This document shows, piece after piece, positions 22,996 to 43,137 of a DNA stretch of 53,913 bases. Positions within the stretch are counted from its first letter, which is position 1, and each line of letters opens with the position of its first letter. The position numbers were made by a program, and so were the translations under genes. The stretch comes from Clostridia bacterium (lineage in GTDB: Bacteria; Bacillota; Clostridia; Lachnospirales; Lachnospiraceae). The DNA lies in contig CAJTDE010000031.1 of NCBI GenBank assembly GCA_910574835.1, forward strand, positions 1-53,913, written 5' to 3'. The notes under the pieces were generated by a model that was given only the letters and a program-made list of their open reading frames with translations, made no database searches and was not told where the DNA came from.

Positions 22996-23172
22996 CACAG
23001 CAGGAAAGACCTGCCTGCCACTTCCCAGGCAGTAAGATAGTGGGGAGGCTGGTATATAACCAGACAAGGCACAGGGACCAGATTCCCTGCTGTTACTTCA
23101 ACGATAGCCGACGGTGGAGGCAGGGCTGTTATAAAAAGCCCCGACAAGGTGTGAGGGAACACACATCATTTC
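22996..23172 (+). ncRNA. Two-domain structured RNA leader, copy 1
   Basis: Order of elements: hairpin CTGCC...GGCAG, GTAAGA-TAGTGGGGAGGC, hairpin CTGGT-ATATA-ACCAG, GACAAGG, hairpin CAGGGA...TCCCTG, CTGTTACTTCA, GGTGGAGGC, hairpin GGGCT...AGCCC, GACAAGGTG. The pattern GGAGGC-stem-GACAAG therefore occurs twice. The second copy at 42980-43137 keeps all unpaired blocks while stems change in a paired way. It ends 28 bases before the gene at 23201 and may be its leader or a separate RNA. I do not recognise a known class. Confidence 0.7.
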
Positions 23173-23200
23173 AGAAATAAAAGAAAGAGAGGATAATGAT

Positions 23201-24139
23201 ATGAATAGACAAAAAGAACTTGCCGTAAAGGTGATGGAGCTTGTAAATGAATTTACACACTGGAATTTCCAGATGATGCAGGAAGGAAGTATTTATCTGG
23301 TCGGCACAACATTGTGCAGCCAGAAAGGACAGGAAATGAATGTCTGCTACAAAATAGAAGATGAAAAAGTACAACTGAATGTATTTGTTTCAGATGTTGA
23401 GTACGATGACGATTTTGTTCATAAAAAGGTTAAGGAGTTGGCACAAAAGTTTGCTGTCGGCGTGGCAGGGGTAAATGGGTGGATGCTTACCTTGGAAAAT
23501 GTAATGCCCTTGCAGTTTTTTGAAAGCAACATGCATGTAATCGTTATGGAAAGAATGACTGATATGTTAGAAGCCATGACAGAGATTGTTAATTATGATG
23601 GGGAGGAAAAAGAAATGGTGGAGTGTTACACGGTTGGGGATGTTTATCAGGAAGCGGTCAATCATCAGGAGGGGATTTTATTTGATATAGATGATTGTGG
23701 TATAAACCTGCATGTATACATGAGAAAACCAACTACACATGAGATTGAACAGTTTGCATCTGGAAATCCATTTGAAATGAAACTGGCACAATTAAGGAAT
23801 GTTATTTTTCCAATGTTCAAATTTGGCGATATGAGCTGGATGGATGCACCATATAATGTACACCTTAGCAGGAACCTGAACAGGCTGGAGATGCCTGCGG
23901 ATGGTCAGGGACTGGCTATGACAGTCCATTTGTACGACACACAGACAGGCAGATTGCTCCATAACAGGCTGCTGTCATTGTCTACGGAAATCAGCAGGAA
24001 GCTTGTTAAAATGGCTATGGAGCAGAAAGAGAAACCCTTTGACAGGCAGGATTATCTGGGGAATGTCAGGAGCATATATGCGGCATATCCGACAAAGAAG
24101 TTATTGGGAATGGCATTGTGCTCTTATAGAGTAAGATAA
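23201..24139 (+). CDS. Unrecognised protein downstream of the structured leader
   Basis: This 312-residue protein has no domain that I recognise. It is mixed alpha/beta and acidic, without signal peptide or membrane segment. The N-terminal half alternates strands and helices (EFTHWNFQMMQEGSIYLVG...), the C-terminal half has LRNVIFPMFKFGDMSWMDAPY and VHLYDTQTG. ATG 23201 follows GAGAGGA. The gene lies between the structured RNA and the helicase gene, in the same direction, and is separated from the helicase by a hairpin without a T-run, so they may be one transcript. The pairing of leader and gene is not repeated at 43221, where the gene is unrelated. Confidence 0.7.
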   Translation: MNRQKELAVKVMELVNEFTHWNFQMMQEGSIYLVGTTLCSQKGQEMNVCYKIEDEKVQLNVFVSDVEYDDDFVHKKVKELAQKFAVGVAGVNGWMLTLENVMPLQFFESNMHVIVMERMTDMLEAMTEIVNYDGEEKEMVECYTVGDVYQEAVNHQEGILFDIDDCGINLHVYMRKPTTHEIEQFASGNPFEMKLAQLRNVIFPMFKFGDMSWMDAPYNVHLSRNLNRLEMPADGQGLAMTVHLYDTQTGRLLHNRLLSLSTEISRKLVKMAMEQKEKPFDRQDYLGNVRSIYAAYPTKKLLGMALCSYRVR

Positions 24140-24151
24140 GCAATAGATTGG

Positions 24152-24185
24152 CGGGGCTTCAGTTAAGGGCTGAAGCCTCCCCCAC
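24152..24185 (+). promoter_or_regulatory. GC-rich hairpin before the helicase gene
   Basis: GGCTTCAG and CTGAAGCC pair perfectly around TTAAGGG, extended by GGGG and CCCC on the outside. No T-run follows; the helicase ribosome site AAGGAGG comes next. It may shield or attenuate the messenger. Confidence 0.45.
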
Positions 24186-24205
24186 AGGGGAAAAAGGAGG
24201 ATATT

Positions 24206-26545
24206 ATGGGAATGAGGGCAGACTTAATCAGGGAGATGTCTCCCCAGATCAGGAAGCTGTTCTATAATGACAGCCATTACTGCAGGGATGTGGAGACAAG
24301 AAAATATGACAGGTACATTGCGGATAACCCTAATAATGTCAAAGCATTAGAGGATGCAATGACAAATAAGGGCATCACACTTGTGGTTGCCCCCACAGGT
24401 TCAGGGAAAAGCAGGACACTGGCAGATGTGGCGAAAAAAGTAGTAAAGCAGGATAAGGACTGCAAGGTATTCATAGCACTTCCGACGGTGAACACAGTAC
24501 AGCAGACAGGGAATATCCCTGATGTCAGGGCCATGGTCGGCGGCGACATGTTCTATACCAGCAAAAAGATTACGGCGACCACTTATGAAAAACTGGACAA
24601 GGTACAGGACTATATCAGGAAGCAGAAGGCCCTTGGGGTTAAGGAAAGGTATGTGCTCATCCTTGACGAGTGCCATTTTCTGGTGACACAGCATAAGTTC
24701 AGGGAATATGCCATGAAAGGGATCATATCGGGCATTGAACAGAATTTTTATGACAGTGCGATACTGCTGACAGCCACACCAGCCCCCATGCCCCTTTTTC
24801 GGTGCGATAAGTGCATTGAGTTTGAGAGCGACAGCTATCGGCCTGTGATGGACAGGATTGAGATTGAGTTCGTGGATGATGTGGTTGAATATATAAAGGG
24901 AATAGATTTGGATCAATGCTTCCCATTTGTCAGGCTCAATAGCACAACACTCATTGGAGATTTGGTAAAAAATTACCTGCCATCCTATGGGGTACTCACA
25001 AGCGGGGAAAAGGACAGTGACCTGTATAATTCCATTGTAGACAGGGAGACAATCCAAAGCTCTCCGCTTAAGGGGATTCTTACTACCAGTGTTTCAGAGG
25101 TTGGAATCAATGTGACTTCCTATCCATCGAATTTGCAGATGATAGCGGCCTTTCCTGACTGGAACATGAGTGTTGACAGTATCGAGCAGTTCTTCAACAG
25201 GGCGAGGAGGACTGCCACATCCCACATTGAGTGTGCAAAGGTCATACTGCCGAAGTCAAAGGCAAATGAAGCATACCTTTTAGATGGGGAGGGAAATAAG
25301 ATATGCGAGTTCCATAATGTTGTGCTGGAGAATGGCATGGCGGTCATAAAAGATACCGCACAGATGGATGGTATCCCATGCGGAAAATATAAGGTGAAGT
25401 TGGATTTATACGGTGGAAAAGTGATAAGAAATTTATATATCAGATCCACGGAGAACAGCGGAGAGGCTACTTACGGCATGGATTCACAGCCTGTATTTTT
25501 TAACGGGGCAGGGTTCAGTCCTTTGATTGGTATTTTGAAATCAAATTACAGGGCTGCCAAAGAAGCAGCGGCCACCCTCCAGAGATATGCGGATGCCTTT
25601 GCAAAGGTAAGGGATGAAAACCAGAGGACAGGAAACTTGACCGATGATGAAATGGAGGGCTTGGAGCTGGATGACAATGAACTGATGGAGATTATGGCAC
25701 TTGCAGGCATTGAAGCCCAGAAAAGGCTGAAAGACTGCCTGAAATATGAGGATGGGGAAATCAGGGTAGATTACAGGCTCCTGTATATGGTGAGCTATGA
25801 CCAGTACCAGAGGCAGTACCTTTACCATGCAGACAGGCTGAAAGAGGAACTGGAAGCCAGAATGAAGGTCAGGGTTGATTTTGTGGAGACGGCGACAGGG
25901 AAAGAAAAAAGAGATTATGACAGGAATAACCTGTGGGAGGGGCTTGAATATGTGAGGCAGGAAGTGGTCTGTGAGGAAGCTTATTATGATGCAATCGTAA
26001 AGTGGGAAGAAAACAAATATACATTACCCACATCCCATCACAGCGGTAATATTGCAAGAATCAGGAGGACAGGGTATCTGGCAGAGATGATGAAAAGCCT
26101 TGAAAAACTGCATATGTCAAAGGAGAATATACTCTGTCTGATGATCAGCTCCAAATCGAAAGCAAAAGTAACAAAGTTCAAAAATGCTTATAACATGATT
26201 ATCTCCAACAGGATGCTTGAAAAATTTGACGGGATGGATGCAACGGCTATTCCCCTGTATCACAAAGGGATAAAAGATACCTTACAGGTAGCCATATATT
26301 GTTACTTAAAGCAGAAAGGGTGCGGATGCTACACCATCACAGATGCACTGGCAGGGGAGATAATAAGATTCTACAAAAAAACTTATCCGAAAGAATCCCT
26401 GTCTCTTAATGAAAAAGGAGCAGTGACTAGGGTTAAAAAAATGCTGAAAAACATGTACAAGTCCAAAGGGGCTGATGCAATCCGCAGCCAACTGAAAACC
26501 GAAGAAAAAGATATTTTTACGATTGAGAAATCAGATTTCAGATAA
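24206..26545 (+). CDS. Superfamily-2 DECH-box helicase
   Basis: The 779-residue protein has the helicase core in its first 350 residues: motif I APTGSGKS (about 62-69), motif II LDECHF (about 153), motif III TATPAP (about 188), motif V TTSVSEVGIN (about 293) and motif VI QFFNRARR (about 330). The remaining 430 residues are mostly helical and unfamiliar. The composition resembles replication-origin or phage DEAD/DEAH helicases more than RecG or UvrB. A CHC2-Toprim primase is encoded 41 bases downstream, so a helicase-primase pair for replication of the element is the simplest reading. Confidence 0.85.
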   Translation: MGMRADLIREMSPQIRKLFYNDSHYCRDVETRKYDRYIADNPNNVKALEDAMTNKGITLVVAPTGSGKSRTLADVAKKVVKQDKDCKVFIALPTVNTVQQTGNIPDVRAMVGGDMFYTSKKITATTYEKLDKVQDYIRKQKALGVKERYVLILDECHFLVTQHKFREYAMKGIISGIEQNFYDSAILLTATPAPMPLFRCDKCIEFESDSYRPVMDRIEIEFVDDVVEYIKGIDLDQCFPFVRLNSTTLIGDLVKNYLPSYGVLTSGEKDSDLYNSIVDRETIQSSPLKGILTTSVSEVGINVTSYPSNLQMIAAFPDWNMSVDSIEQFFNRARRTATSHIECAKVILPKSKANEAYLLDGEGNKICEFHNVVLENGMAVIKDTAQMDGIPCGKYKVKLDLYGGKVIRNLYIRSTENSGEATYGMDSQPVFFNGAGFSPLIGILKSNYRAAKEAAATLQRYADAFAKVRDENQRTGNLTDDEMEGLELDDNELMEIMALAGIEAQKRLKDCLKYEDGEIRVDYRLLYMVSYDQYQRQYLYHADRLKEELEARMKVRVDFVETATGKEKRDYDRNNLWEGLEYVRQEVVCEEAYYDAIVKWEENKYTLPTSHHSGNIARIRRTGYLAEMMKSLEKLHMSKENILCLMISSKSKAKVTKFKNAYNMIISNRMLEKFDGMDATAIPLYHKGIKDTLQVAIYCYLKQKGCGCYTITDALAGEIIRFYKKTYPKESLSLNEKGAVTRVKKMLKNMYKSKGADAIRSQLKTEEKDIFTIEKSDFR

Positions 26546-26586
26546 AAGAAAGGCAGAAAATTTGTTTAAAGGGAGGAAACTTATAT

Positions 26587-27786
26587 ATGATTGACAGAGA
26601 GACAATAAAGGCTGTGAAAGCAGTGGATATGAATATTATTTTTGATGAATTTAATTGGGAGAAAGACAGGTATGGCAGAGTCAGATGCCCACACCCTAAC
26701 CATAATGACAGCACACCGAGCTGTACATTTTCAGAATCAAGGAATACCTGTAAGTGCTTTGGATGCGGAGAGACTTTTGATACCATTGATCTATACCAGT
26801 GCTTGTGTGAAAAAGTCAATGGAAGAGTAGTGCCATTCTATAAAGCAGTAGAAGAAATCCTAAAGCTGGAGGATATAGCAAAGGGGAGCGGTGGTAATGT
26901 GGCGATAAATAACAGCAGTAGTCAGGCTTGTGGTTATCAGTTTGGCGGTAATAAGAGCAGTCAATCAAATGTGCAAGTTACTAATGGTAACAATATCACC
27001 CCTTATGAAATGATAGTAGGTAACAGCAAGCTACTTACAGGATATGAATTAAATTATCTCCATGACAGAGGGATAATGCTTTATGATTCCTATGTTTATG
27101 ATAAAAAAATCTATACAGCACAGAACATTGACAAAGCATTGCAGACAGAGACAGACCAGAATGAAATCAATCGGTTGAATGAGATAAAGGCTAGAGGCAC
27201 ATTTTATAAGGGGATTGCTCCCATCCTGAAAGCAAACAGAATCCAGATTAAGCATAATTATTGGGAGGGAGTGAACAGCATCATTTACCTTGTTGATTAT
27301 GAGGCTGATGATGAAGATGATTTGTGCCTTGACAAGTTTTATATGAATACAGAAAGACACATGGCGGTACAGAAAAGCCTTGACGGAAGCCATACAAAAA
27401 GGGCACTGGGAGCTTCTGATTTTAACTTCATCACACAGGAGCTGGGGTATAATAAGAACAACGATATTTATATCTGTGAGGGGATAGAAGATGCTTTATC
27501 CTGTGTTATGAATGGGATAAAAAGCATATCGCTCAACAGCATTGCAAACTTAAAATCCCTGATTCATTATCTATCAGAGGAACATGCTCTGCACTGTAAT
27601 GAGAGGTTTGTTATATGCTTTGACCATGATGGAGCTGGAAGAAAAGCGACAGAGGAATTAAAGGGATTCTTTGAAGCATACAACCAGAATCCGCCGAAGA
27701 ACCAGAAGTATGATTATGCGGCATTAGATTATCCACAAGAGTTCCATGATATAAATGATTACTGGAAATCAAGGGTGTTTGGATAG
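26587..27786 (+). CDS. DnaG-like primase with CHC2 zinc finger and Toprim domain
   Basis: The 399-residue protein starts with a CHC2 zinc ribbon: Cys-Pro-His with later His and the CKCFGCG pair at about residues 32-57, in the DnaG context TPSCTF...FDTIDL. A Toprim domain follows, with the glutamate in ICEGIEDALS (about 298) and the acidic pair in CFDHDGAG (about 345). Such proteins lay primers for replication of plasmids and phages. The linker between zinc ribbon and Toprim is asparagine/serine-rich. It is shorter than DnaG and lacks a helicase-binding C-terminus. Confidence 0.88.
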   Translation: MIDRETIKAVKAVDMNIIFDEFNWEKDRYGRVRCPHPNHNDSTPSCTFSESRNTCKCFGCGETFDTIDLYQCLCEKVNGRVVPFYKAVEEILKLEDIAKGSGGNVAINNSSSQACGYQFGGNKSSQSNVQVTNGNNITPYEMIVGNSKLLTGYELNYLHDRGIMLYDSYVYDKKIYTAQNIDKALQTETDQNEINRLNEIKARGTFYKGIAPILKANRIQIKHNYWEGVNSIIYLVDYEADDEDDLCLDKFYMNTERHMAVQKSLDGSHTKRALGASDFNFITQELGYNKNNDIYICEGIEDALSCVMNGIKSISLNSIANLKSLIHYLSEEHALHCNERFVICFDHDGAGRKATEELKGFFEAYNQNPPKNQKYDYAALDYPQEFHDINDYWKSRVFG

Positions 27787-27815
27787 AAAACAACACTTTT
27801 TAATTGGAAAAAATA

Positions 27816-27951
27816 TGCCTCTTAAAAAGAAAAAGATAGGTAGCATATAGATGGAAAGTGATTCACTCGGTAAAAAAGACTTCATAGACTTTTTTCAACG
27901 AATGTTTTTCTCTATTGATACTGTAAACCCACTTTTTCTTTTTTAGGGGCA
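27816..27951 (-). repeat. Interspersed hairpin element, copy B
   Basis: TGCCTCTTAAAAAGAAAAAG at the left pairs with CTTTTTCTTTTTTAGGGGCA at the right. The first 70 bases match the reverse complement of copy A closely, so B is inverted relative to A. The inner stem AAAAAAG/CTTTTTT is kept. It lies 29 bases after the primase stop, and no dyad accompanies it. Confidence 0.75.
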
Positions 27952-28145
27952 TATTTTCTTTTTATTATATTTTTTTTCTTTCTGTCTATAATCTAAGGTC
28001 AATAAAAATAAGGGTGGAAGTCCTTAAAACAGGTTAAGACAGTAAAAAGACAGGTTGCAGTTTTACAGGTTTACATTGACAGGTTGCTAAAGGTGATGGC
28101 ATGAGCCAGATATTTTATGTGCAAAGCACAGGAAGGAGAAATTTT
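27952..28145 (+). other. Leader with short repeats before the DUF5688 gene
   Basis: TGTC-TATAAT at 27985-27994 resembles the promoter-like TGTC-TATAAT at 34912-34921, both just outside a hairpin element. Downstream, ACAGGTT occurs four times within 45 bases, twice as GACAGGTTGC (about 28050-28087). No known RNA is recognised. Together with the end of the primase-side gap this covers 27787-28145. Confidence 0.45.
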
Positions 28146-29117
28146 ATGCAGGGAAAAGATTCTAAAGAAAGGGATTGTATGTCATTTGATGGATTCTGTA
28201 TATCTGTCAGGATCGACATACAAAGGAGGCTTGGCGACAGCTTCCTTGTTTATTTGAACGATGTCACCAAAAACAATGATACAAAGCTGAAAGCCTTAGT
28301 CATTACGGAGCAGGATACAAACCTGCACCCCAACATTTACATGGAGGGATTCTATGACAGGTACAGGGATGGGGATTCCCTTGTTGAAATTGAAGAAGCC
28401 ATACTGCTGGTCTATCAGAAAAGCAGAATGGGGAAAAGGTTTGATGCTTCCCTTTTCACAAACTGGAAGAAAGTGAAAGAGAGGATCATATTCAGGCTTG
28501 TCAATTTCGACAGGAACAGGGAGCTTCTGAGTGATATTCCCCACAGGAAATTCCTTGACCTTGCCATTGTGTATGAATGTTTTCTGGGGGTGAATGATGG
28601 GGGCGGTGCATCCATACTTATCCATAACAGCCATCTGGATTTATGGAAAGTAACAGAGGATGAACTGCATACCACAGCTTTCAGGAACACCCCTGAACTG
28701 ATGGGGTGCAGCTTCCTGAATATGAAAGAAGTGCTCCAGAAGCTTATGGACAGTGAAGGGGAAAAGGAACTGCTGGAAGGCCTGTGGGGAGTGGAAGAAG
28801 CAGATGACAACAGATTCCCCATGTATGTGCTGACCAACAGATACAAGATCCATGGGAGTGGATGTATCCTTTACAAAAACCTCCTGAAAAAGATTTCGGA
28901 GGAATGGGGCTGTGACATCTGCATCATCCCTAGCAGTGTGCATGAAACTATACTGATGCCGATGGATAAAGTGGAAAGCTATGGGGGAATGTCACAGATG
29001 ATCTGTGAGGCCAACAGAACGGCGGTCATGCCCGATGAAATCCTTTCAGACCATCCATACCTGTTTGTCAGGGAGACAGGGAAAATCACAATGCAGGAGG
29101 GGATGGACTATGAATAA
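28146..29117 (+). CDS. DUF5688-family protein
   Basis: The 323-residue protein has the DUF5688 pattern: a K-A-L-V-I segment followed by NLHPNIYMEGFYDRYRDGDSL and an EIEEAILLVY helix, then mixed alpha/beta to the C-terminal MYVLTNRYKIHGSGCILY. The family is common in Lachnospiraceae mobile DNA and has no established function. ATG 28146 is chosen because GGAAGGAG precedes it with the same spacing as the DUF262 gene downstream; an upstream ATG at 28101 lacks a site. The stop overlaps the SSB start by eight bases. Confidence 0.75.
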   Translation: MQGKDSKERDCMSFDGFCISVRIDIQRRLGDSFLVYLNDVTKNNDTKLKALVITEQDTNLHPNIYMEGFYDRYRDGDSLVEIEEAILLVYQKSRMGKRFDASLFTNWKKVKERIIFRLVNFDRNRELLSDIPHRKFLDLAIVYECFLGVNDGGGASILIHNSHLDLWKVTEDELHTTAFRNTPELMGCSFLNMKEVLQKLMDSEGEKELLEGLWGVEEADDNRFPMYVLTNRYKIHGSGCILYKNLLKKISEEWGCDICIIPSSVHETILMPMDKVESYGGMSQMICEANRTAVMPDEILSDHPYLFVRETGKITMQEGMDYE

Positions 29118-29517
29118 GGTAATCTTAAAAGGCAGATTAACAAGGGATCCCGATGTGCGGTATACAACCAGCAGCGAGCCTGTCTGCATAGCAAGGTTTA
29201 CACTTGCCGTTGAGGACAGGGAGAGGGCAAAAGGAGAAGATGGCAATTATCCAGCGAATTTCATCCCCTGCATATGCATGGGGAAGCTGGGGGAGATTGC
29301 GGAAGCAAACCTCTGTAAAGGCAAGGAGATTCTTCTCTGCGGAAAGATGCAGAGTGGAAGCTACGAAAACAAAGAGGGGAAGAAAGTCTATACCCTTGAA
29401 TGTTTCGTAAAGGAGATCGAATACTGTGGCAGAAAGGAAGATTCCCCTATGCCCTATGATGGTCAGGGATTTATGAACATCCCCGATGATTTGGATGAGG
29501 AACTGCCTTTCAGATAG
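29110..29517 (+). CDS. ssb: Single-stranded DNA-binding protein
   Basis: This 135-residue protein is an SSB: it begins MNKVILKGRLTRDPDVRYT, keeps the OB-fold core ending in GKKVYTLECFVKEIEYCG and finishes with an acidic tip DDLDEELPFR, like the DDxxPF tip that recruits replication proteins. One extra arginine follows the usual final phenylalanine. It coats single-stranded DNA during replication or transfer. The start at 29110 overlaps DUF5688, showing co-translation. It is distinct from the chromosomal SSB by length, as usual for plasmid copies. Confidence 0.93.
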   Translation: MNKVILKGRLTRDPDVRYTTSSEPVCIARFTLAVEDRERAKGEDGNYPANFIPCICMGKLGEIAEANLCKGKEILLCGKMQSGSYENKEGKKVYTLECFVKEIEYCGRKEDSPMPYDGQGFMNIPDDLDEELPFR

Positions 29518-29622
29518 GCAGTGCATTACAACTATATAGGATATTTACAGGAATGGGAGCGGTGCTGTGATACTGTCACAGGCATTGGTTCCATATTTTT
29601 ATTTTCGGAAGGAGAAATTTTT

Positions 29623-31017
29623 ATGAACAGGACAAAATTATCATGGACAGTCGCAAACATAGAGAAGATGCACAAGGACAAGAAGGTGCTTTCCTTTGAC
29701 CACCCGATACAGCGAAAATCGGAGATTTGGACAAATGCACAGAAATCGCTTCTTATCCATTCCATGCTTGCCAACTACCCTGTGCCCAACATTTATGTGC
29801 TTCGGGAGGACAGCGAGCAGGTGGATGAAAAGAAGAAGCCCATCTTTAATTATTATGTTATGGACGGCAAGCAGAGGCTCACAAGCACACTGTCTTATAT
29901 CTGGGGAGATTTTCCCTTGGATGATAATATTCCTAACATTATTGTTGAGGACACAGAGTATCCGATTGCTGGGAAGTATTTCTGTGATTTGGAAGAGCCT
30001 GTGCAGTATGAAATCAAAAGATACAAGTTTGAAATCATTGCATTTGAGGACTGCGGCAATCGGGAGATAGAGGAAATCTTCTTCCGACTGAACAACAGCA
30101 CGGCACTCACAAAATCACAGATTGCGAAGGCTAAGATTGGTGTGGAGCTGGCAGGGATTGTCAGCGAGATTCTGGAATCCAGATTCTTTTCGGTGAGCTG
30201 CAGCTTTACAGGGGCACAGTTAAAAGCAAGCGATGACCAGAGATGCCTGTTACAGGCTATGATGCTCCTTGACACCAACTATGTGAGTGGTTTTGAACTG
30301 AAAGATTTTTCGGAAAATTCCATTTTGGAATATTCGGAAAGCATAAGGGAGAGCTACAGTGATAAGCAGATTGTCACACTCAGGTCTGCAATCGAATACC
30401 TGACGGATGCCTTTCCTGAAAAGAACAAACAGCTTAAGAAGATTAACATCCCCATGCTGATTTACCTTGCTGATGTGGCAATGGATGCAGGGATAGTAAA
30501 GCCTATGTATCTGCGGCAGTGGTGGGAGTTCTTCACAGAGGAAGATTCCCTGTTTGAGGACTACAAGCTGTTCTGCTCAACAGGCTCCACGAAATTGGAA
30601 AAGGTCAACGGGAGACTGGCGGTTATGGTTAAGAGCTTCTGCCTCTACCATGAGATTGAGATTCCAGAAGAACTGAAAGACATGGTGGCGGAAGTGGAGG
30701 AAAAGATTGCCCTTATAAAAGAAGAAAGGGAAAAGGAATCTTCATTGGAAGCTGATCCTGTGCTGGAAGAAAAGGAGGGCGGCGATGCCCCTGATGCGGA
30801 AAATACAGAGCAGGAGGAAGAACAGCCATTATTGGAACAGGAAGAATCTGATCCAGAGGAACAGGGAGAAATATCTGTTGTTCAGAAGTGTGCAGATGCT
30901 CCCATAGCACAGGAGGATACCCCTGAAATTCAGGAAGAAGATGCAGGGCATTGTAAAGATGGCCCTGAACCTCCCGAAACAGGGGAAGGTGGTCTTCCTG
31001 TGGATGCAGAGGAATGA
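29623..31017 (+). CDS. DUF262 (ParB/GmrS-like) protein with acidic tail
   Basis: The N-terminal 200 residues match DUF262: HPIQRKSEIWTNAQKSLLIHSML and the nucleotide-binding signature MDGKQRLTS near residue 88, then EIFFRLNNSTALT. DUF262 is the nucleotide-driven half of GmrSD type-IV restriction enzymes and of other ParB-like nucleases. No DUF1524 HNH nuclease motif is visible in the rest, and the last 90 residues are almost entirely Glu, Asp and Pro, probably disordered. It could be a DNA-damage or anti-phage regulator of the island, or a partition-related protein. ATG 29623 follows GGAAGGAG. Confidence 0.8.
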   Translation: MNRTKLSWTVANIEKMHKDKKVLSFDHPIQRKSEIWTNAQKSLLIHSMLANYPVPNIYVLREDSEQVDEKKKPIFNYYVMDGKQRLTSTLSYIWGDFPLDDNIPNIIVEDTEYPIAGKYFCDLEEPVQYEIKRYKFEIIAFEDCGNREIEEIFFRLNNSTALTKSQIAKAKIGVELAGIVSEILESRFFSVSCSFTGAQLKASDDQRCLLQAMMLLDTNYVSGFELKDFSENSILEYSESIRESYSDKQIVTLRSAIEYLTDAFPEKNKQLKKINIPMLIYLADVAMDAGIVKPMYLRQWWEFFTEEDSLFEDYKLFCSTGSTKLEKVNGRLAVMVKSFCLYHEIEIPEELKDMVAEVEEKIALIKEEREKESSLEADPVLEEKEGGDAPDAENTEQEEEQPLLEQEESDPEEQGEISVVQKCADAPIAQEDTPEIQEEDAGHCKDGPEPPETGEGGLPVDAEE

Positions 31018-31074
31018 TACAGCCTGCATAAAAATTTCATATAGAGGCGTGGCGGTTATATGAGCCACAGGACA

Positions 31075-31098
31075 GGGGCAGGCAGGAATGTCTGCCCC
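31075..31098 (+). terminator. Hairpin between the DUF262 gene and the next gene
   Basis: GGGGCAG and CTGCCCC pair perfectly around a ten-base loop and are followed by TTTAT. This is a weak intrinsic terminator or attenuator 30 bases before the start at 31127. Confidence 0.5.
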
Positions 31099-31126
31099 TT
31101 TATCAAAGGAAAGGATGGTAGTTCAT

Positions 31127-34502: not shown

Positions 34503-34526
34503 GAAACTGACTGTAAAGGCATTATG

Positions 34527-34552: not shown

Positions 34553-34561
34553 TCATTTGGA

Positions 34562-34859: not shown

Positions 34860-34915
34860 GATGTTTTTGTTTTAGAAAAATTCTGATTTTAGTTATAATT
34901 TATATGGCAGGTGTC

Positions 34916-35107: not shown

Positions 35108-35199
35108 GACGTTTTTAATATAGATTAGGATTTTTGGAACAGAAATCACTAAGCATATAGGTTATATGTAATGGGTGCAATATGTATACTATATTTTCC

Positions 35200-35262
35200 T
35201 TGCATTGATAATGAGAGTACGTTATACTTGAATGGTATAGGGGCAACATGTTGAACATATTA
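35200..35262 (+). promoter_or_regulatory. Promoter and operator-like box of the membrane-protein gene
   Basis: TTGCAT (35200-35205) and TATACT (35223-35228) are 17 bases apart. TATAGGGGCAACATGTTGAA with ACAT following (35236-35260) lies just downstream and recurs in altered form at 36486 and 36551. The nearby XRE gene is a plausible regulator. Confidence 0.6.
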
Positions 35263-35356
35263 TAATTTGATTTTAAGTGAAACTTTTTGGAGAAAACAGT
35301 GCTCCCTTATATAACAGGGTAAAAACCTGAAAATATTACAGCTAAAGGAGATGCCT

Positions 35357-35413
35357 ATGAGAAGAATGATGAACACACTATCGGTTGGCACACGGAGGAA
35401 AGGGGTTGAATGA
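35357..35413 (+). CDS. 18-codon leader peptide upstream of the membrane-protein gene
   Basis: ATG 35357 has AAAGGAG six bases upstream and encodes 18 residues, MRRMMNTLSVGTRRKGVE. The stop ends one base before the next ATG at 35415, so translation of the second gene could be coupled to it. It is a small basic peptide without a known function. The ribosome site and tight spacing support it; no conservation can be checked here. Confidence 0.4.
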   Translation: MRRMMNTLSVGTRRKGVE

Positions 35414-35414
35414 T

Positions 35415-36017
35415 ATGGGAGAAGTAAAAACAAAACACAGGAAGCTGACAATAATAGATATCCTTTATGATGACACCTTATGGATAGTTTTCTATATCTT
35501 TAATACCCTGTATGCATTTGGAAGGGTGATGGTCAGGTATAATTACAGTTCCGTTGCGGACAGCAATCCAATATCGGTGGCCCTGCACGGCGGGTTTTAC
35601 CTTATATGTGCTATGGTAGTCGGCGGACAATGTATGGGAGCCAGATTTGCAAGATGCAGTGTGATGGAAATGCTTTATTTTGGTTTGAGAATAATAGTCC
35701 TCTGCCCGCAGTTTTCGGAGACCTTTTCTTACCTGCTGGCAGCACGGGTTATCTGTATTCTGGTTGGGGCATTTATGGGGGTTATAGTGTTTAAGAAACA
35801 ATACAGGGAAATGGATAAAAAGTATCACTTCCGTTGGAAAGTCATTTTACCCGTGGCGGTGTTAAGTATTGTTCTGTTTGTCATAGTTTACCATGAATAT
35901 GTGATGCAGATGATAGGGGGAGCGTTTATAATCGCAATAATAGCAGTATTTTGCAACTTAGGGGGCGTGAATGTAATCCCGATTGAGGATATAGATTCTA
36001 TAATCTTGAAAAAATAA
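35415..36017 (+). CDS. Integral membrane protein, unknown family
   Basis: The roughly 200-residue protein has about five to six hydrophobic segments (LWIVFYIFNTLYAF, FYLICAMVVGG, LLAARVICILVGAFMGVIVF, VILPVAVLSIVLFVIVY, GGAFIIAIIAVFCN). There is no signal peptide or transporter motif that I recognise. The likely start is ATG 35415, preceded by GGAGGAAAGGGG. It is expressed from the promoter at 35200 and is followed by a bidirectional terminator shared with the convergent XRE gene. Immunity or anti-phage membrane proteins can look like this, but nothing specific supports that. Confidence 0.7.
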   Translation: MGEVKTKHRKLTIIDILYDDTLWIVFYIFNTLYAFGRVMVRYNYSSVADSNPISVALHGGFYLICAMVVGGQCMGARFARCSVMEMLYFGLRIIVLCPQFSETFSYLLAARVICILVGAFMGVIVFKKQYREMDKKYHFRWKVILPVAVLSIVLFVIVYHEYVMQMIGGAFIIAIIAVFCNLGGVNVIPIEDIDSIILKK

Positions 36018-36091
36018 CAGGGAGAAGAATTTATACAGAATTTTATAATATGGTAAGAAAAGAACTGAGGAAAATCTACATAGAGAAAAAC

Positions 36092-36130
36092 AAGCCTTAT
36101 GTTCCCTGTAAGAGGGGAACATGGGCTTAT
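36092..36130. terminator. Bidirectional terminator between the membrane-protein and XRE genes
   Basis: AAGCC-TATGTTCCC pairs with GGGGAACATGGGCTT, followed by ATTTTTTT on the plus strand. It resembles the terminator at 35069-35101, which starts with the same AAGCCTTATGTT. Confidence 0.7.
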
Positions 36131-36399
36131 TTTTTTCGCTTCTTTCTATGGAAATTGATGATTTCCTCTTTCCGCTCATTGATTGCGGTGATTTCTTCCT
36201 CTGTTGCAGTGAACAGCAGAATATCCTCTACCCTGCAGTCCAGTATCAGGCACAACTCATTGAGGGTGTTGGAGCTTATCGGCTCTCCATGCCCCATTCT
36301 TCTTAATGTATTTGATGAAATCCCCCAGTAATATGTGAGCTTGTATTTTGATATTCCTCTTTCTTTCATGGTAGACCATAGCGGTTCATACGAAATCAT
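36127..36399 (-). CDS. Small XRE/Cro-type transcriptional regulator
   Basis: This 90-residue protein is a single Cro/CI helix-turn-helix domain: WSTMKERGISKYKLTYYWGISSNTLRRM, then NTLNELCLILDCRVEDIL, followed by a lysine/arginine-rich tail. It has the short form used by many mobile elements for local control. It is divergent from the lipoprotein gene at 36674, and the intergenic space carries the AGGGGCTACATATTGAATA-like boxes that may be its operators. Confidence 0.88.
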   Translation of the reverse strand: MISYEPLWSTMKERGISKYKLTYYWGISSNTLRRMGHGEPISSNTLNELCLILDCRVEDILLFTATEEEITAINERKEEIINFHRKKRKK

Positions 36400-36483
36400 G
36401 TATATCCCCCCTTTCCTGTCAGGGTTTCCAGTATCTTATATGTTCATTCTAGTATCAATGTAAAATATTGAACATTCATTACA

Positions 36484-36575
36484 TTTAATAGGGGCTACAT
36501 ATTGAATATAGACCTTGCACAACGGTGGCAGGTACGTTATAATACAGTAGGGATAGGGGTAATATGTAATCCATA
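36484..36575 (+). promoter_or_regulatory. Promoter with two operator-like boxes before the lipoprotein genes
   Basis: TTGCAC (36515-36520) and TATAAT (36538-36543) are 17 bases apart. AATAGGGGCTACATATTGAA (36488 onward) lies upstream and GATAGGGGTAATATGTAAT (36552 onward) downstream. The pair brackets the promoter, which suits repression by the adjacent XRE protein. Confidence 0.6.
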
Positions 36576-36673
36576 AATAAGCGGATTTCCGATTACTTAT
36601 GGACAGGGATATATCCCCAGATAAAATACAAAAGGGCAGGATGGCAGAAATCCTGAATATGAGGAGGAAGAAA

Positions 36674-37450
36674 ATGAAAAAGAGAATTGTGATTGCTTTA
36701 GTAACAGGATTGATGATGGTATCCTTTACAGGGTGCGGAACAAAGGCAGAGTCAACAGATCAGGAGGCTTCTGAAAGCAGTAGTGCTGAAACAGAGGCAG
36801 ATGATGAAATCGCAAGCGAAGAGGTTGCTGGAGAAGACACCGAAGACGAAGAAGAACTTGGGGATACTAATTATAATGGTATCATTCTGTTTTCAGAAAA
36901 AGAATCTAAAGACTTTGATGCATTAGATGAAATTGAATATAAAGCATTTAATGGTTACATAGAAGCAGAATCATATGTTCCTATTTTGGATGGAGATGGT
37001 TATTGGATTGGTAGCATTGAACCTGGAACAACTGTTTCTATTACAGAAATGAGTACAGATTTATGGGCAAGGTTTGAGAATCCGATTGAAGGTACAGATT
37101 ATGATTATCTGTATGTAAGAAATGAAATGGTTGATTCAGAAGATTTCCATTATGATGCGGTAAAGATGAAACAGGGAATTGAAAACTATATTAACACTTA
37201 TGGTATTCAAGATGCAGAATATACATTTTTGGATGAAAAAGTTTCTGATATGGAACTCTTTGAATGTAGAATGGATTCAGTATATGATGATCAAACGATG
37301 TATGAATATTGGGTTGCAGAACAGATTACAAGAAATGACGAAGTGAATCCATTGCTTTATGGAACACTTTATATTGAGTGCGAAGATGATACAGATGGTT
37401 GGATTATCTGCAGAATTTATTATAAAGACCTTATCGAATCAGAGTATTAA
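36674..37450 (+). CDS. Lipoprotein with acidic linker and SH3-like segment
   Basis: The 258-residue protein begins with a lipoprotein signal, KKRIVIALVTGLMMVSFTGC, with the lipid-anchored cysteine in the lipobox FTGC at about residue 20. A glutamate/serine-rich linker follows, then a beta-rich part with ILDGDGYWIGSIEPGTTV that resembles a bacterial SH3 fold. It is therefore exported and anchored on the outer face of the membrane. ATG 36674 follows AGGAGGAAG. A related lipoprotein lies 21 bases downstream. The role may be surface binding or sensing; the promoter region suggests control by the XRE protein. Confidence 0.8.
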   Translation: MKKRIVIALVTGLMMVSFTGCGTKAESTDQEASESSSAETEADDEIASEEVAGEDTEDEEELGDTNYNGIILFSEKESKDFDALDEIEYKAFNGYIEAESYVPILDGDGYWIGSIEPGTTVSITEMSTDLWARFENPIEGTDYDYLYVRNEMVDSEDFHYDAVKMKQGIENYINTYGIQDAEYTFLDEKVSDMELFECRMDSVYDDQTMYEYWVAEQITRNDEVNPLLYGTLYIECEDDTDGWIICRIYYKDLIESEY

Positions 37451-37471
37451 AAATTAACGGGAGATAGTGTT

Positions 37472-38413
37472 ATGAAGAGGGAAAGAATCTATGCAATCTT
37501 TATGGTTGCAATTATGGCACTTGCTAGCGGATGTGGGAACATAGAAGATACAGACAAGACAGAGACTGCTGTGATAGAGGGCAGTGCCAGCGAAACAGTG
37601 GAAACTGAAAATTCTGATGTCATAGATAAAAAAACTGTTGAACCTGAAAGTTCTTCCACAGAAGCTAAAGACATTGACAGCATGATTGTCGAGAAAGATG
37701 ATTCAGAGCTTGATATGAAGGCTTACCATTACAGTATGGAAGACAGAACATTTTGTGATGATGGAGAGGATGTTTTCGGCGCTGTATTCTTTGATGAAAG
37801 TAATCTGACAAATTATGTTACAACAGGAAAAGTGCCAATTTATGCACAGAATGGTGTAAGGATTGGCTATGCGAATGAAGATGTTGATATTATTGTAATG
37901 GGAACTTATGGTGATTGGTGTCGCTTTTATTTAGATAAAGATATCAGATATGCGAGAATTTCTGATATTGAAGCAGATGCAATTACCATGGATGAAAGGG
38001 ATGCGATAAAAGAAGAGGAAGCAAAGAAACAGGAATCTACTGTGAAAACAGAGAAACCAAATGAAGCAACTCCTGTTGAACCACCTGTGGTGGATAATAC
38101 TGATACTTCTGTTGTATCTGAATCTGTGGAACAACCTACTACAAGTGATAAGTATACTCCTGAAGAGGCAATGGCAGTTTATCGTTCTCTGATGGAAGCA
38201 GGTGGTATTACTTGGAATCCTGCTCTTAAGGATGGAGGTAGTTGGGGTACAGGATTTATGTATCTTGATAAAGGTTATCCTGAGTGGGCTGCAAGTTCTT
38301 CACTTGAATCTTTTGCAATTGGAAATCATGGAGGTGCATCATGGACTGAGTTTTATTTTGAAGTAACAGGTTCAGATGAAGAATGTGTCTACTATACAAT
38401 GTGGGCAGAATAA
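37472..38413 (+). CDS. Second lipoprotein with SH3-like segment
   Basis: The 313-residue protein starts MKRERIYAIFMVAIMALASGC with lipobox LASGC. After a Thr/Glu/Ser-rich linker comes VPIYAQNGVRIGYANEDVDI with GDWCRFYL, an SH3-like strand pattern shared with the lipoprotein before it. A C-terminal segment (PEEAMAVYRSLMEAGGITWNP...) adds a further domain with tryptophans and conserved-looking GGASWTEFYFEV. The two probably act as a pair at the cell surface. A bidirectional terminator follows. Confidence 0.8.
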   Translation: MKRERIYAIFMVAIMALASGCGNIEDTDKTETAVIEGSASETVETENSDVIDKKTVEPESSSTEAKDIDSMIVEKDDSELDMKAYHYSMEDRTFCDDGEDVFGAVFFDESNLTNYVTTGKVPIYAQNGVRIGYANEDVDIIVMGTYGDWCRFYLDKDIRYARISDIEADAITMDERDAIKEEEAKKQESTVKTEKPNEATPVEPPVVDNTDTSVVSESVEQPTTSDKYTPEEAMAVYRSLMEAGGITWNPALKDGGSWGTGFMYLDKGYPEWAASSSLESFAIGNHGGASWTEFYFEVTGSDEECVYYTMWAE

Positions 38414-38453
38414 ATTTAAAAGGGCTTAGAGAAATCCAGGCTCTTAAACAGAC

Positions 38454-38496
38454 AAAAAAGATTATCTATTCGATTAAGAAGCAGATAATCTTTTTT
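38454..38496. terminator. Bidirectional terminator between lipoprotein and RuvC genes
   Basis: AAAAAAGATTATCT and AGATAATCTTTTTT pair perfectly over 14 bases, with A-run and T-run on either side, so it can end transcription in both directions. It overlaps the last bases of the convergent RuvC-like gene. Confidence 0.8.
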
Positions 38497-39220
38497 ATTG
38501 TTCCCATGGAGCTTTAGGCATTGTCCTGAAATTCCATTCCATGTGTGCATATTTTGATGGGATAGGGATTTCATAATATACACAGCTTTCTTTCATTCCC
38601 TGAATAAAGGAATAGAAGCAACAGGCAAAAGCATCTGCCCTGTGGGAGTTGTTAAGAAGCTGAATGTCACCTGTCAGGTTGTAGGCTGCCTGACACATTT
38701 CCTGTTTATCTGCTTTCCCGTTTCCAGTGAGACAGTATTTTATAGAAGTGGCAGGTATTGGCTTGTAGAAATGGTTCAAAGCATAAGCGGTTGTGGTAAG
38801 CAGGGTAGTTGTTTCCTGTGCATCTATCACACCTTTCAGGGTATCGGTATCCCGAATTGTGTTTAGGGAAAGTCTCTCAAAGGTCATGGACAATACCTGT
38901 CTGTGGGCGAATAATTCATAGTATTTCTGGCATAAGAAAATCTGTTTGTCTTTCTGCAATGCAAGCATATCCAGATCATCTAAAAAGTAATAGGAATCCC
39001 CAAATTCAAAATCAGTGATGGCTTTATGTGCATCCCTTATGATGTTTATATATGCAAAGGCAGTATTACTGACACCAGAATCTATGCCGACCATTATCTG
39101 CGGTAAATCAAGGGAAACACTGTCCATGGTTGGGAAATAACATTTGAAAGGGAATTGGTCAGGAATCCCTTTCTCCCTTGGAATGTGCTTTTTGTATAGG
39201 TAGGTATTCTGCTCTGCCAT
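38495..39220 (-). CDS. RuvC-like Holliday-junction resolvase
   Basis: The 241-residue protein matches RuvC along its length: the first aspartate in VGIDSGVSNTAFAYI, the glutamate in MTFERLSLN, the K-x5-TGNGKADKQ block, and the C-terminal HRADAF, equivalent to the His-x2-Asp of Thermus RuvC. RuvC cuts Holliday junctions as a dimer. The start MAEQNTYLY (39220) follows GAGGAAATA and lies four bases after the upstream stop; the frame is open further upstream in overlap. It ends a four-gene operon with three winged-helix-like proteins. On a Tn7-like island it could resolve recombination intermediates or cointegrates; that is inference. Confidence 0.83.
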   Translation of the reverse strand: MAEQNTYLYKKHIPREKGIPDQFPFKCYFPTMDSVSLDLPQIMVGIDSGVSNTAFAYINIIRDAHKAITDFEFGDSYYFLDDLDMLALQKDKQIFLCQKYYELFAHRQVLSMTFERLSLNTIRDTDTLKGVIDAQETTTLLTTTAYALNHFYKPIPATSIKYCLTGNGKADKQEMCQAAYNLTGDIQLLNNSHRADAFACCFYSFIQGMKESCVYYEIPIPSKYAHMEWNFRTMPKAPWEQ

Positions 39221-41209: not shown

Positions 41210-41824
41210 TTAAGTAGGAACAAAAGTGACTTTTAGGGAGAGCAGTTCACAGGTCATGGCTTTGCTTTCGATTTCTTCATTTCCATAATTATCTGTAACA
41301 ACCTCGATTGCTTCATAGGTTCCCTGCTCTGTCTGATAAATGATATCTGGCATGGATAACTGGTTGTTTTTCAGTGCATCCACAAGTTCCTGATAATGGT
41401 CATGCTCCTGTTTGTCCAGATACTCCTGCAATCTGCTTTCTATGAATGGCTGCAATTCCCTTTCGCTGATAATAGAATCCAATTCCCTTTTTGAGAGATT
41501 GTCGGCCAGATATTCAGAGACTTTGCTGTTGTGGATAGAGGCATTTCCATTACTGATAAATTGTTTGATGTTACATTCCTGTCGGCAGAAGGCTTTGCCC
41601 TTTTTATCTGTCAACTCATAAAAGGTTTTGATGCTGTTCCCATGCTTATCTGGTACACTGACCTCTTTGATAAGTCCTGCCTGCTTATAGGATTTGATTC
41701 TGTTGTCGGTAATCTCTAATTTATGGAGAGTATCTTTACTCATGGCACCTGATTTCGCAAGCAAGGAAAAAGCCCTTTTGTCCTTTGGGTAGACATGTGA
41801 CAGTCCACCTTTTTTCTTTGCCAT
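41210..41824 (-). CDS. Winged-helix protein with a possible degenerate PD-(D/E)XK domain
   Basis: The 204-residue protein has an N-terminal helix-turn-helix or winged-helix part (LAKSGAMSKDTLHKLEITDNRIKSYKQAGLI...YELTDKKGKAF), a coiled linker and a C-terminal strand pattern MPDIIYQTEQGTYEAIEVVTDN. The proline-aspartate and the following E-x-V resemble the core of PD-(D/E)XK nucleases and of replication-relaxation proteins, but the lysine is missing. AAAAGGAG precedes ATG 41824. It opens the operon that ends with RuvC. It could be a DNA-binding regulator or relaxation protein. Confidence 0.6.
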   Translation of the reverse strand: MAKKKGGLSHVYPKDKRAFSLLAKSGAMSKDTLHKLEITDNRIKSYKQAGLIKEVSVPDKHGNSIKTFYELTDKKGKAFCRQECNIKQFISNGNASIHNSKVSEYLADNLSKRELDSIISERELQPFIESRLQEYLDKQEHDHYQELVDALKNNQLSMPDIIYQTEQGTYEAIEVVTDNYGNEEIESKAMTCELLSLKVTFVPT

Positions 41825-41864
41825 GTATCTTCAACTCCTTTTAAAAAATCTATGTAAACACTGC

Positions 41865-42110
41865 TTCAAGGGGCAGTGGATGCCCCGCTGTCCGAAGGAC
41901 AGCTAATATAAAAAATTAGGATTGTACATAACACTTGTAAAGTCTGTTGCTGGGGGCGAGCGTACCCAGCCCCATGGGAGGTTGCCAGCGGCAAATGCGA
42001 AGCATTTCCTCCCTGTTTATGGGGCGCAGGCGGAGCTTTGGGGCACGAAGTGCCACATTGCGGAGGCGAGCCCCCAGCTCTTCCTTGTTTTGCTTTGCTA
42101 TGTTATGGGG
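41865..42110. other. Field of GC-rich hairpins, candidate origin or oriT
   Basis: Consecutive small stems include GGGGCA/TGCCCC (41870-41886), GCTGTCC-GAA-GGACAGC (41887-41903), GCTGGG/CCCAGC near 41950, AATGC-GAA-GCATT near 41995 and GGCAC-GAA-GTGCC near 42043. The GC content contrasts with the AT-rich flanks. A similar set, including GCTGTCC/GGACAGC, lies in the oriT-like region of island 2 at 48405. An origin of replication or transfer is plausible. Confidence 0.45.
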
Positions 42111-42249
42111 TAAGAGTAAACACGTTTGTTGACAAGGCACTGACTTTTTCTGTACTTTATACATTATTGTAGATGATGGATGTATCTGCTATTACGAAAA
42201 TATGCACTATCTCTAAAATAGGTAGTAATACCAGAACAGAAGAAAAGAA

Positions 42250-42388
42250 TGCCACTTAAAAAGAAAAAGGTTGGTAGGTGTATCATTGGAAGAGAACTAT
42301 CAGTCAAAAGAAAAGGCATGTCTGTTTTCTTTGACAGATACCAGTCAATACAGAATCTAATACTTACCATTTTTCTTTTTACGAGGCA
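42250..42388 (+). repeat. Interspersed hairpin element, copy D
   Basis: TGCCACTTAAAAAGAAAAAGG pairs with the right end CATTTTTCTTTTTACGAGGCA; an inner stem joins GTCAAAAGAAAA and TTTTCTTTGAC almost perfectly. The 170 bases that follow match those after copy A. Confidence 0.75.
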
Positions 42389-42539
42389 GAATCTTTTTCA
42401 TACAAAGCATCAGCTTCTATGAAGATAACAGAATTAGGACATAAAAAGTATGTATTATATATAAGGGAAAAATGGGGCATCTTTTATGGGTAAAATGCTC
42501 TGAAACACTGATGTTTACTGGCTTCAGGGCATGTTGGGA

Positions 42540-42560
42540 GCTAGACAGGCTCTGTCTAGC
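42540..42560. repeat. Conserved dyad of repeat unit D
   Basis: GCTAGACAG and CTGTCTAGC pair perfectly around GCT. Compared with copy C the ninth pair is G-C instead of A-T, a compensated change. Confidence 0.7.
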
Positions 42561-42626
42561 AAAACAGGGGAATTAGGACAGTAAGAAAAAGGGAAAATGA
42601 TTCTGCAAAATTTTTTGAAAAATATG

Positions 42627-42655
42627 TTGACAGCTTTTTAAAAGTTTGTTATAGT
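42627..42655 (+). promoter_or_regulatory. Promoter of the structured leader and the 43221 gene
   Basis: TTGACA (42627-42632) and TATAGT (42650-42655) are 17 bases apart, the best promoter in island 1. The next gene starts 566 bases downstream, so the transcript would have a long leader containing both RNA structures. Confidence 0.75.
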
Positions 42656-42711
42656 AATCTCATGTTCCCCTAGAGTGGCGAACAAAAATTTAATATCAAC
42701 CAGATTAAGAT

Positions 42712-42842
42712 AGTGGTTAGGACATTATTGTTTCGGTTGGTAGGATACTTTAAAAATTACAGTGGAGAGTAAAGGGAAGTTTATGCCTTGAAATCTACAG
42801 ACAGTATCTACTAGCAGAAACTTTTTTAGTGTCCTAACCACT
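42712..42842 (+). ncRNA. Leader RNA domain closed by a 13-bp helix
   Basis: AGTGGTTAGGACA (42712-42724) and TGTCCTAACCACT (42830-42842) are perfect complements and enclose 105 bases; TTTTT follows at once. The enclosed part contains shorter possible stems but no frame with a ribosome site. It lies 57 bases downstream of the promoter at 42627. It may be a stable RNA with a terminator-like end, or an attenuator. No counterpart precedes copy 1 of the two-domain RNA. Confidence 0.55.
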
Positions 42843-42899
42843 TTTTGGTTTCTAAATTAGATATGCTGAACCTTGACAACTAAATAAAGGAGCTTGAAT

Positions 42900-42930
42900 A
42901 AAAAATGCAAATTAGTATTGCTCGGAGCAA
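42900..42930 (+). repeat. TGCAATTTA...GCTCGG box, copy 3
   Basis: AAAAATGCAAATTAG is followed by TTGCT-CGG-AGCAA. The stem is longer than in copies 1 and 2 and remains paired despite changes. It lies 50 bases before copy 2 of the two-domain RNA. Confidence 0.6.
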
Positions 42931-42979
42931 AAAGAAAATCCATGCGATAATAGATTCAACGAAAGGGAGATAAGGCTTT

Positions 42980-43137
42980 AACAGGGAATACCTGCCACTT
43001 CTCAGGCAGTAAGAATAGTGGGGAGGCTGGCATACAGCCAGACAAGGTATCAAGTGCCAAAAGGCTTGCTGTTACTCCATCAGCAGTTATCTGGATGGAG
43101 GCAGGGCTGTCTATAACAGTTCTGACAAGATGCAGGG
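42980..43137 (+). ncRNA. Two-domain structured RNA leader, copy 2
   Basis: Elements match copy 1 in order: CTGCC...GGCAG, GTAAGAATAGTGGGGAGGC, hairpin CTGGC-ATACA-GCCAG, GACAAGG, hairpin CAAG-T-GCC...GGCTTG, CTGTTACTCCA, GGATGGAGGC, hairpin CAGGGCTGT...ACAGTTCTG, GACAAGATG. Stem changes relative to copy 1 are compensated (for example T-A to C-G in the second hairpin). It ends about 80 bases before the start of the 43221 gene and is transcribed from 42627. Confidence 0.7.

Follow-up and report, generated by a model that had tools for sequence, protein, structure and literature searches.

A candidate gene-independent 5' leader RNA carried twice by a transposon beside guaA in a Clostridia genome

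The 53,913-nucleotide (nt) stretch of DNA analysed here (the window; contig CAJTDE010000031.1 of assembly GCA_910574835.1, Clostridia bacterium) holds two related RNA elements of ~170 nt, copy A at ~22990-23167 and copy B at ~42974-43154. The balance of the evidence favors reading them as a modular, cis-acting and gene-independent 5'-leader cassette of the transposon that lies beside guaA, which we take to be of the Tn7/Tn5053 type. A dedicated promoter, consisting of a 24-nt box with TGCTCGG near -35, a 20-nt spacing and GATAAT, would start transcription shortly before the structured RNA. The ~170 nt would fold into two like modules with a linker hairpin between them and a terminal hairpin at the end, and the transcript would run on into the ribosome-binding site of whichever gene follows. 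From copy A it would reach a gene for a 312-amino-acid (aa) protein with helicase and primase-like genes behind, and from copy B an exchangeable gene near the end of the element. The leader would most likely act after initiation, its two like modules being presented to a partner, protein or ribosomal, through which the stability of the mRNA or its translation would be set. From the DNA sequence we infer an active promoter and one transcript for RNA and gene and, beyond these, a partner for the leader and a direction of control.

Three features argue for a cis-acting leader: a promoter-like unit stands before each copy, no terminator match separates the RNA from its gene, and between two B copies the gene is replaced but the leader retained. 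A leader that persists through a change of gene would act on the transcript and not for one product. A wider proposal, put forward tentatively and rather doubtful as a whole, is that the element represents a new class of leader RNA, built of tandem pseudoknot-hairpin modules with a promoter type of its own, and serves as a universal control cassette under which genes are exchanged at a dedicated slot near the transposon end. If this is true, a newly captured gene would be placed at once under the shared control of the element, and the transposon would control captured genes by a reusable RNA leader rather than by each gene's own promoter. The box and the RNA would then be a marker for the variable cargo site of these elements.

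Copies and distribution

A sequence-only reading of this DNA had described a structured RNA occurring twice, with shared blocks in the same order, and both copies were found where it placed them, with those blocks in each. Its boundaries needed small changes; the conserved unit starts at the box (22933 for A, 42902 for B) and the last positions of the terminal hairpin are 23167 and 43154. Copies A and B are 76% identical (blastn, E 1.4e-19), and copy A as query against the genome of the window matched only copies A and B. The GGAGGC-stem-GACAAG unit does occur twice per copy: the window contains five instances of GGAGGC-N9..25-GACAAG against 0.13 expected from shuffles, and the copies account for four. 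Nor did the RNA fall into a known class, as had been said of it. Rfam 15 gave no window match at or above the gathering score, and relaxed scans gave E 1.3 or worse only. Four points are additional to that reading: the box-GATAAT spacing, the same-strand gene without a terminator, the transposon carrier and the gene exchange at B.

Further homologues were found, the total from all searches being nine copies in six genomes, with seven distinct sequences. Three of the six genomes have two copies and the other three have one; the genomes are drafts. A pattern search showed copies in 3 of 98 genomes (that of the window, G013 and G004), and model R1 showed the same three among 16 genomes of the genus. 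Scanning genome_contigs for three exact blocks gave six loci, a scan that misses more diverged copies and in whose loci the blocks are conserved by construction. Two of these are the G013 and G004 loci (RNA identical), and the remaining four are spread over three genomes with two, one and one copies. Over the RNA, locus L026 is identical to copy A and L030 to copy B. All named records carrying copies are Clostridia or Lachnospiraceae.

Across the family and beyond the genome of the window, R1 gave matches of 20-23 bits in 3 of 397 genomes (L022-L024). Most of the conserved blocks were absent from these on alignment, and they were taken as chance and dropped. Model R2, run with stricter filters under which weak matches are lost, matched only the genome of the window among 245 class and 392 order genomes. 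Four pattern scans of viral contigs gave two matches (L009, L059), neither of them matched by R1, and the plasmid and phage collections had no blastn match to copy A, the copy tried. Among the titles listed from open-licence literature on antitermination, Tn7-like, antitoxin and leader themes, none concerned this RNA.

Fold and covariation

Each copy consists of two tandem like modules, and 12 of the 14 modules are distinct. In order, a module has an H-type pseudoknot, a hairpin and GACAAG, the last of which reads GACGAG in one L027 module. Its helix S1 is formed by CTGYY and a partner that ends in AG. The loop within S1, CTYC.., pairs with GGGGAG or GRTGGAG further downstream (S2), giving the pseudoknot; GC, the hairpin and GACAAG follow. 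A linker hairpin lies between the modules and a terminal hairpin closes the RNA. The parts of the two window copies are as follows.

22990-23187, + strand: leader of copy A, from the predicted transcription start (placed from GATAAT) to the ribosome-binding-site region; the structured part ends at 23167
23015-23069, + strand: module 1 of copy A; S1 23015-23019/23028-23032, pseudoknot S2 23021-23026/23042-23047, H1 23049-23053/23059-23063, then ACAAGG
23072-23089, + strand: linker hairpin of copy A, CAGGGA/TCCCTG
23090-23148, + strand: module 2 of copy A; S1 23090-23094/23103-23107, pseudoknot S2 23096-23102/23113-23119, H2 23122-23129/23135-23142, GACAAG 23143-23148
23148-23167, + strand: terminal hairpin of copy A, GGTGTG 23148-23153 / CACATC 23162-23167
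42958-43154, + strand: leader of copy B, predicted start placed from GATAAT; structured part ~42974-43154, terminal hairpin 43129-43134/43149-43154
42992-43047, + strand: module 1 of copy B; S1 42992-42996/43005-43009, pseudoknot S2 42998-43003/43020-43025, H1 43027-43031/43037-43041, then ACAAGG
43051-43068, + strand: linker hairpin of copy B, CAAGTG/GGCTTG, 5 of 6 pairs standard
43069-43129, + strand: module 2 of copy B; S1 43069-43073/43082-43086, pseudoknot S2 43075-43081/43094-43100, H2 43103-43110/43116-43123, GACAAG 43124-43129

In the eight-helix model of 48 pairs, 324 of 336 cells are paired (96.4%) across the seven distinct copies. The compensated stem changes reported earlier are real, and they involve more stems than had been listed. 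Seven of the 48 pairs are changed on both sides against a shuffle mean of 3.3 (reached by 3 of 500 shuffles), and the covariation score is 0.230 against 0.166 in shuffles (reached by 0 of 500). For four of the five shuffle measures, no more than 3 of 500 shuffles do as well. Sliding the partner strand by 1-3 columns lowers pairing to 37-53%; the fold model was read off the same sequences on which it is scored, and the sliding control favors the model for that reason too. RNAalifold, which draws no pseudoknots, recovered six of the eight helices unprompted (module-1 S2, H1, linker, module-2 S1, H2 and terminal).

The pairing also has a strand preference. G-U pairs make up 41 of the 324 paired cells on the + strand, and the complementary strand would pair 283 of 336 (84%), a comparison made over the proposed helices. 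The difference between 324 and 283 cells favors an RNA of the same sense as the genes.

A coding role for this region was considered and rejected. Between the copies, a frame that crosses the RNA agrees in only about 11 residues at its start (VGRLVYNQTR-like), after which frame and length diverge. Among six leaders, a Shine-Dalgarno match at usable spacing for a frame within the leader is present in L027 only.

The promoter-like unit

The 24-nt box AAAATGCAANTTANNANTGCTCGG precedes the RNA, once before B and twice before A. The distance from TCGG of the box to GATAAT is 20 nt in all nine copies. In the 16 genomes of the genus the box without mismatch occurs at eight places, all of them at these elements, and two further matches carry three mismatches. 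It is reasonable to infer that transcription would start from the box, near the 5' edge of the RNA. The window has three such units, their function being assigned from sequence.

22846-22895, + strand: putative distal promoter-like unit of copy A; box AAAATGCAATTTAGCAGTGCTCGG 22846-22869, TAGACT 22890-22895 at the same 20-nt spacing
22933-22982, + strand: putative proximal promoter-like unit of copy A; box 22933-22956, 20 nt, GATAAT 22977-22982
42902-42951, + strand: putative promoter-like unit of copy B; box 42902-42925, 20 nt, GATAAT 42946-42951

A terminator-like hairpin (22807-22833) follows the gene upstream of copy A, and an inverted repeat and then T's (~42712-42846, by eye) precede copy B. 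Also upstream of copy B, the region 42627-42846 has a strong sigma-70-like match, TTGACA-17-TATAGT; about 55 nt behind it, a stretch of ~130 nt framed by AGTGGTTAGGACA/TGTCCTAACCACT and T's (by eye) is a candidate for a separate small RNA.

Genes behind the RNA and gene exchange at copy B

In all copies a same-strand gene starts behind the GGAGGC of module 1, at a distance of 157 nt (A) or 187-199 nt (B), and none of the seven distinct copies has a terminator-like match between RNA and gene. This arrangement, with a promoter-like unit on the other side of the RNA, disfavors the earlier suggestion that the RNA acts on its own. The ribosome-binding site is predicted to be on average 80-97% unpaired in six of six leaders, and a riboswitch that sequesters the ribosome-binding site was rejected on this ground.

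23201-24139, + strand: 312-aa gene directly behind copy A, the gene in the five A copies read (window, G013, G004 = L028, L026, L029)
24206-26545, + strand run: helicase gene behind the 312-aa gene in the window
26587-27786, + strand run: primase-like gene behind the helicase gene in the window
43221-44150, + strand: 309-aa gene behind copy B in the window and L030, replaced by a 181-aa gene in L027 or a 346-aa gene in L025 (= G013)

The 312-, 309-, 346- and 181-aa proteins have no Pfam family above cutoff. The 309-aa protein is unrelated to the 312-aa protein (best BLASTP E 5.2) and has no similarity to the 346-aa protein. The downstream genes had been called unrelated before, and a gene-specific riboswitch is indeed unlikely. 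Two narrower versions of such a tie were rejected. First, a riboswitch for one gene family does not agree with the lack of similarity among the genes behind A, window copy B and L025, the L027 gene matching that of window copy B at just E 0.056. Second, the RNA is not tied to the 312-aa gene, relatives of whose protein in three other genera (G196, G245, G401) lack the leader in the stretches fetched. At the loci of these relatives (L056-L058) R1 gave one 16-base match, E 1.7, and two of the upstream regions were read by eye.

Between the genomes of the window and L027, the gene behind copy B is exchanged while the leader is kept, and the exchange extends up to the end of the element. The two sequences are 87-93% identical from -30 to +30 around the start codon and 27% identical thereafter; the retained block takes in the leader, the ribosome-binding site and about ten codons. 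In L027, homology resumes beside the stop codon with element-end sequence (985-1349 = window 44144-44509). The 181-aa protein of L027 (1863-2408, - strand) is very acidic, with 56 D/E against 13 K/R and the look of a DNA mimic; it has no ArdA match in Pfam.

Evidence against a cis-acting leader

Several observations weigh against this interpretation. With regard to the fold, the sequences are few and closely related, and the fifth shuffle measure, further pair types, is weak (83 of 500 shuffles reach it). One-sided changes are the only ones seen in S2 of module 1 and in both pseudoknot helices of module 2. RNAalifold pairs the 5' strand of module-1 S1 with the module-2 region, and it adds a 5' hairpin outside the model, each pair of which is broken in at most two of seven rows.

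With regard to the promoter, the box is not a sigma-70 -35 hexamer and differs by one base in L027. A consensus promoter scan scores the A unit 9/12 and does not list the B unit. Matches to the sigma-70 consensus in the region are at chance level (43 found, 42.3 expected), and the promoter call therefore rests on conservation and spacing. Further downstream, the linker hairpin inside the RNA weakly matches a terminator consensus, with the tail CTGTTACTTC, in four of four distinct A copies, and the stretch from the ribosome-binding site to the start codon is predicted to be just 56-82% unpaired.

With regard to the exchange, the 181-aa and 309-aa proteins have a weak BLASTP match over their first ~70 residues (E 0.056), and they may share more than their start. 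Retention of leader plus codons is strong between window copy B and L027 only. Copy B of G013 is 53-73% identical to that of the window around the start and 33% after codon 5, and G013 has ~6 kb more between the B gene and the end of the element. Some of what is retained could be no more than a recombination junction.

Other explanations

The leader might be a plain mRNA stabiliser that senses no signal, the mRNA being protected by its 5' structure or by the two untranslated GGAGG motifs. STAB-SD leaders protect mRNA in this way, through untranslated GGAGG motifs in the 5' leader, and the present RNA resembles them: GGAGG occurs once in each of the 14 modules, in 13 of them without a start codon within 11 nt (in module 2 of L027 an ATG lies 11 nt behind it). 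Unlike in STAB-SD leaders, GGAGG lies here inside two conserved pseudoknots, GGAG being the 3' strand of the pseudoknot helix and hidden if that helix forms. Two conserved pseudoknot modules or GACAAG are not obviously needed for protection, and a stabiliser of this kind is unlikely.

A trans-acting RNA (antitoxin, guide, scaffold or decoy), transcribed from this promoter and then freed from the rest of the transcript, would account for the independence from the downstream gene. The type III antitoxin RNAs ToxI, CptI and TenpI are tandem units with H-type pseudoknots, an architecture that the two like pseudoknot modules of each copy resemble. Multiple RNA repeats are also a feature of type III antitoxins (PMC8860590). 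The units described here differ from them in having an extra hairpin and GACAAG, there is no Rfam match, and no toxin gene was recognised downstream. No ToxN was present among 46 distinct proteins scanned against Pfam, namely 44 from the window (of 123 open reading frames of at least 80 aa) and those behind L025 and L027, with the genes behind A and window copy B included. The retention of leader, ribosome-binding site and codons between window copy B and L027, and the lack of a terminator-like match before the gene in the seven distinct copies, are further evidence against release. A free guide, scaffold or antitoxin RNA is quite improbable, as is this explanation in its wider form.

Processive antitermination is another mechanism by which a leader could act in cis, the RNA binding the elongating polymerase after the promoter so that it passes terminators inside the cargo. 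The put RNA of phage HK022 and conAn2 of pLS20 bind the elongating polymerase right after the promoter. The element resembles conAn and put in being a structured RNA close to a promoter that serves an operon on a mobile element; conAn2 is the RNA found where conjugation operons of Gram-positive bacteria begin (PMC8955417). The element is unlike them in that window copy B precedes one gene at the end of the element. At copy A the structured RNA is proximal to a promoter-like unit and stands before a + strand run of open reading frames (23201-38413) with + strand terminator-like sites inside, for example 28223, 34526 and 36096, and 22250-39000 holds 20 terminator-like sites on both strands where 10.8 are expected. 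However, the first three genes behind A hold one weak + strand terminator-like site only (25061). The B gene of the window and L027 ends at the end of the element, and 41800-45700 yielded a single terminator-like site, at 44376 within the terminal repeat. Antitermination fits window copy B poorly, although the argument from the element end fails in G013 with its ~6 kb more behind B. This explanation too is given a low probability.

A single-stranded DNA structure acting as a promoter (Frpo/ssi type), priming site or origin during transfer or replication of the element is very improbable, even though the repeated structure stands before mobile-element genes and the cargo counts SSB, RadC, helicase and primase-like genes among its members: the 41 G-U cells of the coding strand would become A-C mismatches on the template strand that such a promoter would need, a promoter-like unit precedes each copy at fixed spacing, and Mob_Pre, the one relaxase gene recognised, belongs to a stretch that G013 and G004 lack. 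Frpo/ssi single-stranded promoters are structured repeats before establishment genes of conjugative elements (PMC8708921), and the present element is unlike them in that its proposed helices favor the coding strand, with many G-U pairs. The same strand asymmetry, 41 G-U among 336 cells, disfavors the replication-control role that had been raised earlier.

Comparison with EGeRS1

The nearest described layout to the proposed cis-acting leader is that of EGeRS1 of pLS20 plasmids, which the element resembles in layout without being a member. EGeRS1 is a repeated structured sequence within one mobile element, its copies located right upstream of ribosome-binding sites of different and variable operons. 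The copies on pLS20 are 420-751 bp long, EGeRS1-B was found without a constitutive promoter, and the authors call the mechanism unknown (PMC8708921). The five EGeRS1 repeats were seen again in NC_015148. The two are alike in having several copies per element, upstream of ribosome-binding sites, with three different genes at locus B in the present case. They are unlike in that the structured part here is ~170 nt long, has two pseudoknot modules and lies behind a promoter-like unit. R1 gave nothing at E up to 10 in 41000-56000 of NC_015148, and blastn between EGeRS1 and this element gave a best E of 0.13 over 16 bases, so no sequence relation was found. If the leader cassette is real, the puzzle that EGeRS1 poses in bacilli would gain a case from Clostridia in which a promoter-like unit is present.

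The carrying transposon and other features

The transposition genes of the carrying element adjoin guaA, and the RNA copies lie among the genes behind them.

6227-7822: GMP synthase gene guaA, adjoining the transposition genes
8661-10613, + strand: TnsB-like transposition gene
10606-11997, + strand: TnsC/TniB-like transposition gene
11987-13468, + strand: TniQ/TnsD-like transposition gene
7829-8130 and 44209-44510 (+ strand): identical 302-bp direct repeats, the first after guaA, the second just behind the copy-B gene at the far end of the transposon

G013 has both 302-bp repeats and both RNA copies, and G004 has one repeat and copy A only (80 kb fetched). TnsB and the RNA co-occur in the same 3 of 16 genomes of the genus. 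TnsB relatives at E <= 1e-60 are present in 13 of 397 family genomes besides that of the window. By R1 (best E 0.48) the RNA is absent from the stretches of 11 of these 13 (all but G367 and G378), which comprise 17 loci of 5-20 kb, some of them ended by contig ends. The same stretches had no GGAGGC-N6..35-GACAAG and no box; shorter motifs matched here and there. A core part in the transposon family was rejected for the RNA on the basis of these stretches. Since TnsB relatives in other genera lack it in these stretches, the RNA looks like cargo of this lineage and not like transposition machinery.

The cargo genes include those for a helicase, a primase-like protein, SSB, RadC and a large-polyvalent-protein domain. 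The helicase and primase-like genes (24206-27786) match the PADLOC models for a reverse-transcriptase-associated helicase and a DnaG-like protein at 2.3e-4 and 4.9e-18; Pfam scans revealed no reverse transcriptase in those window proteins that they covered. A nested insertion occupies 14809-22268: the element in G013, G004 and L026 lacks this stretch, which has genes for a serine recombinase, the Mob_Pre relaxase, and metallo-beta-lactamase-fold, HTH and SUKH proteins. Between TniQ and the cargo lies a gene for a 373-aa protein (13760-14881) with no Pfam or NCBIfam match, whose DNA aligns up to 14809 in G013 and G004.

An AT-rich stretch is repeated in both orientations between genes, at 13467-13790, 27807-27875, 34732-34868 and 42243-42561. 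It carries a ~20-bp inverted repeat, TGCC..AAAAAGAAAAAG / CTTTTTCTTTTT..GGCA (by eye), and is perhaps a terminator working in both directions, or else a small repeat element. Outside the element, 52235-52368 and 53290-53423 form a 134-bp direct repeat with 94% identity.

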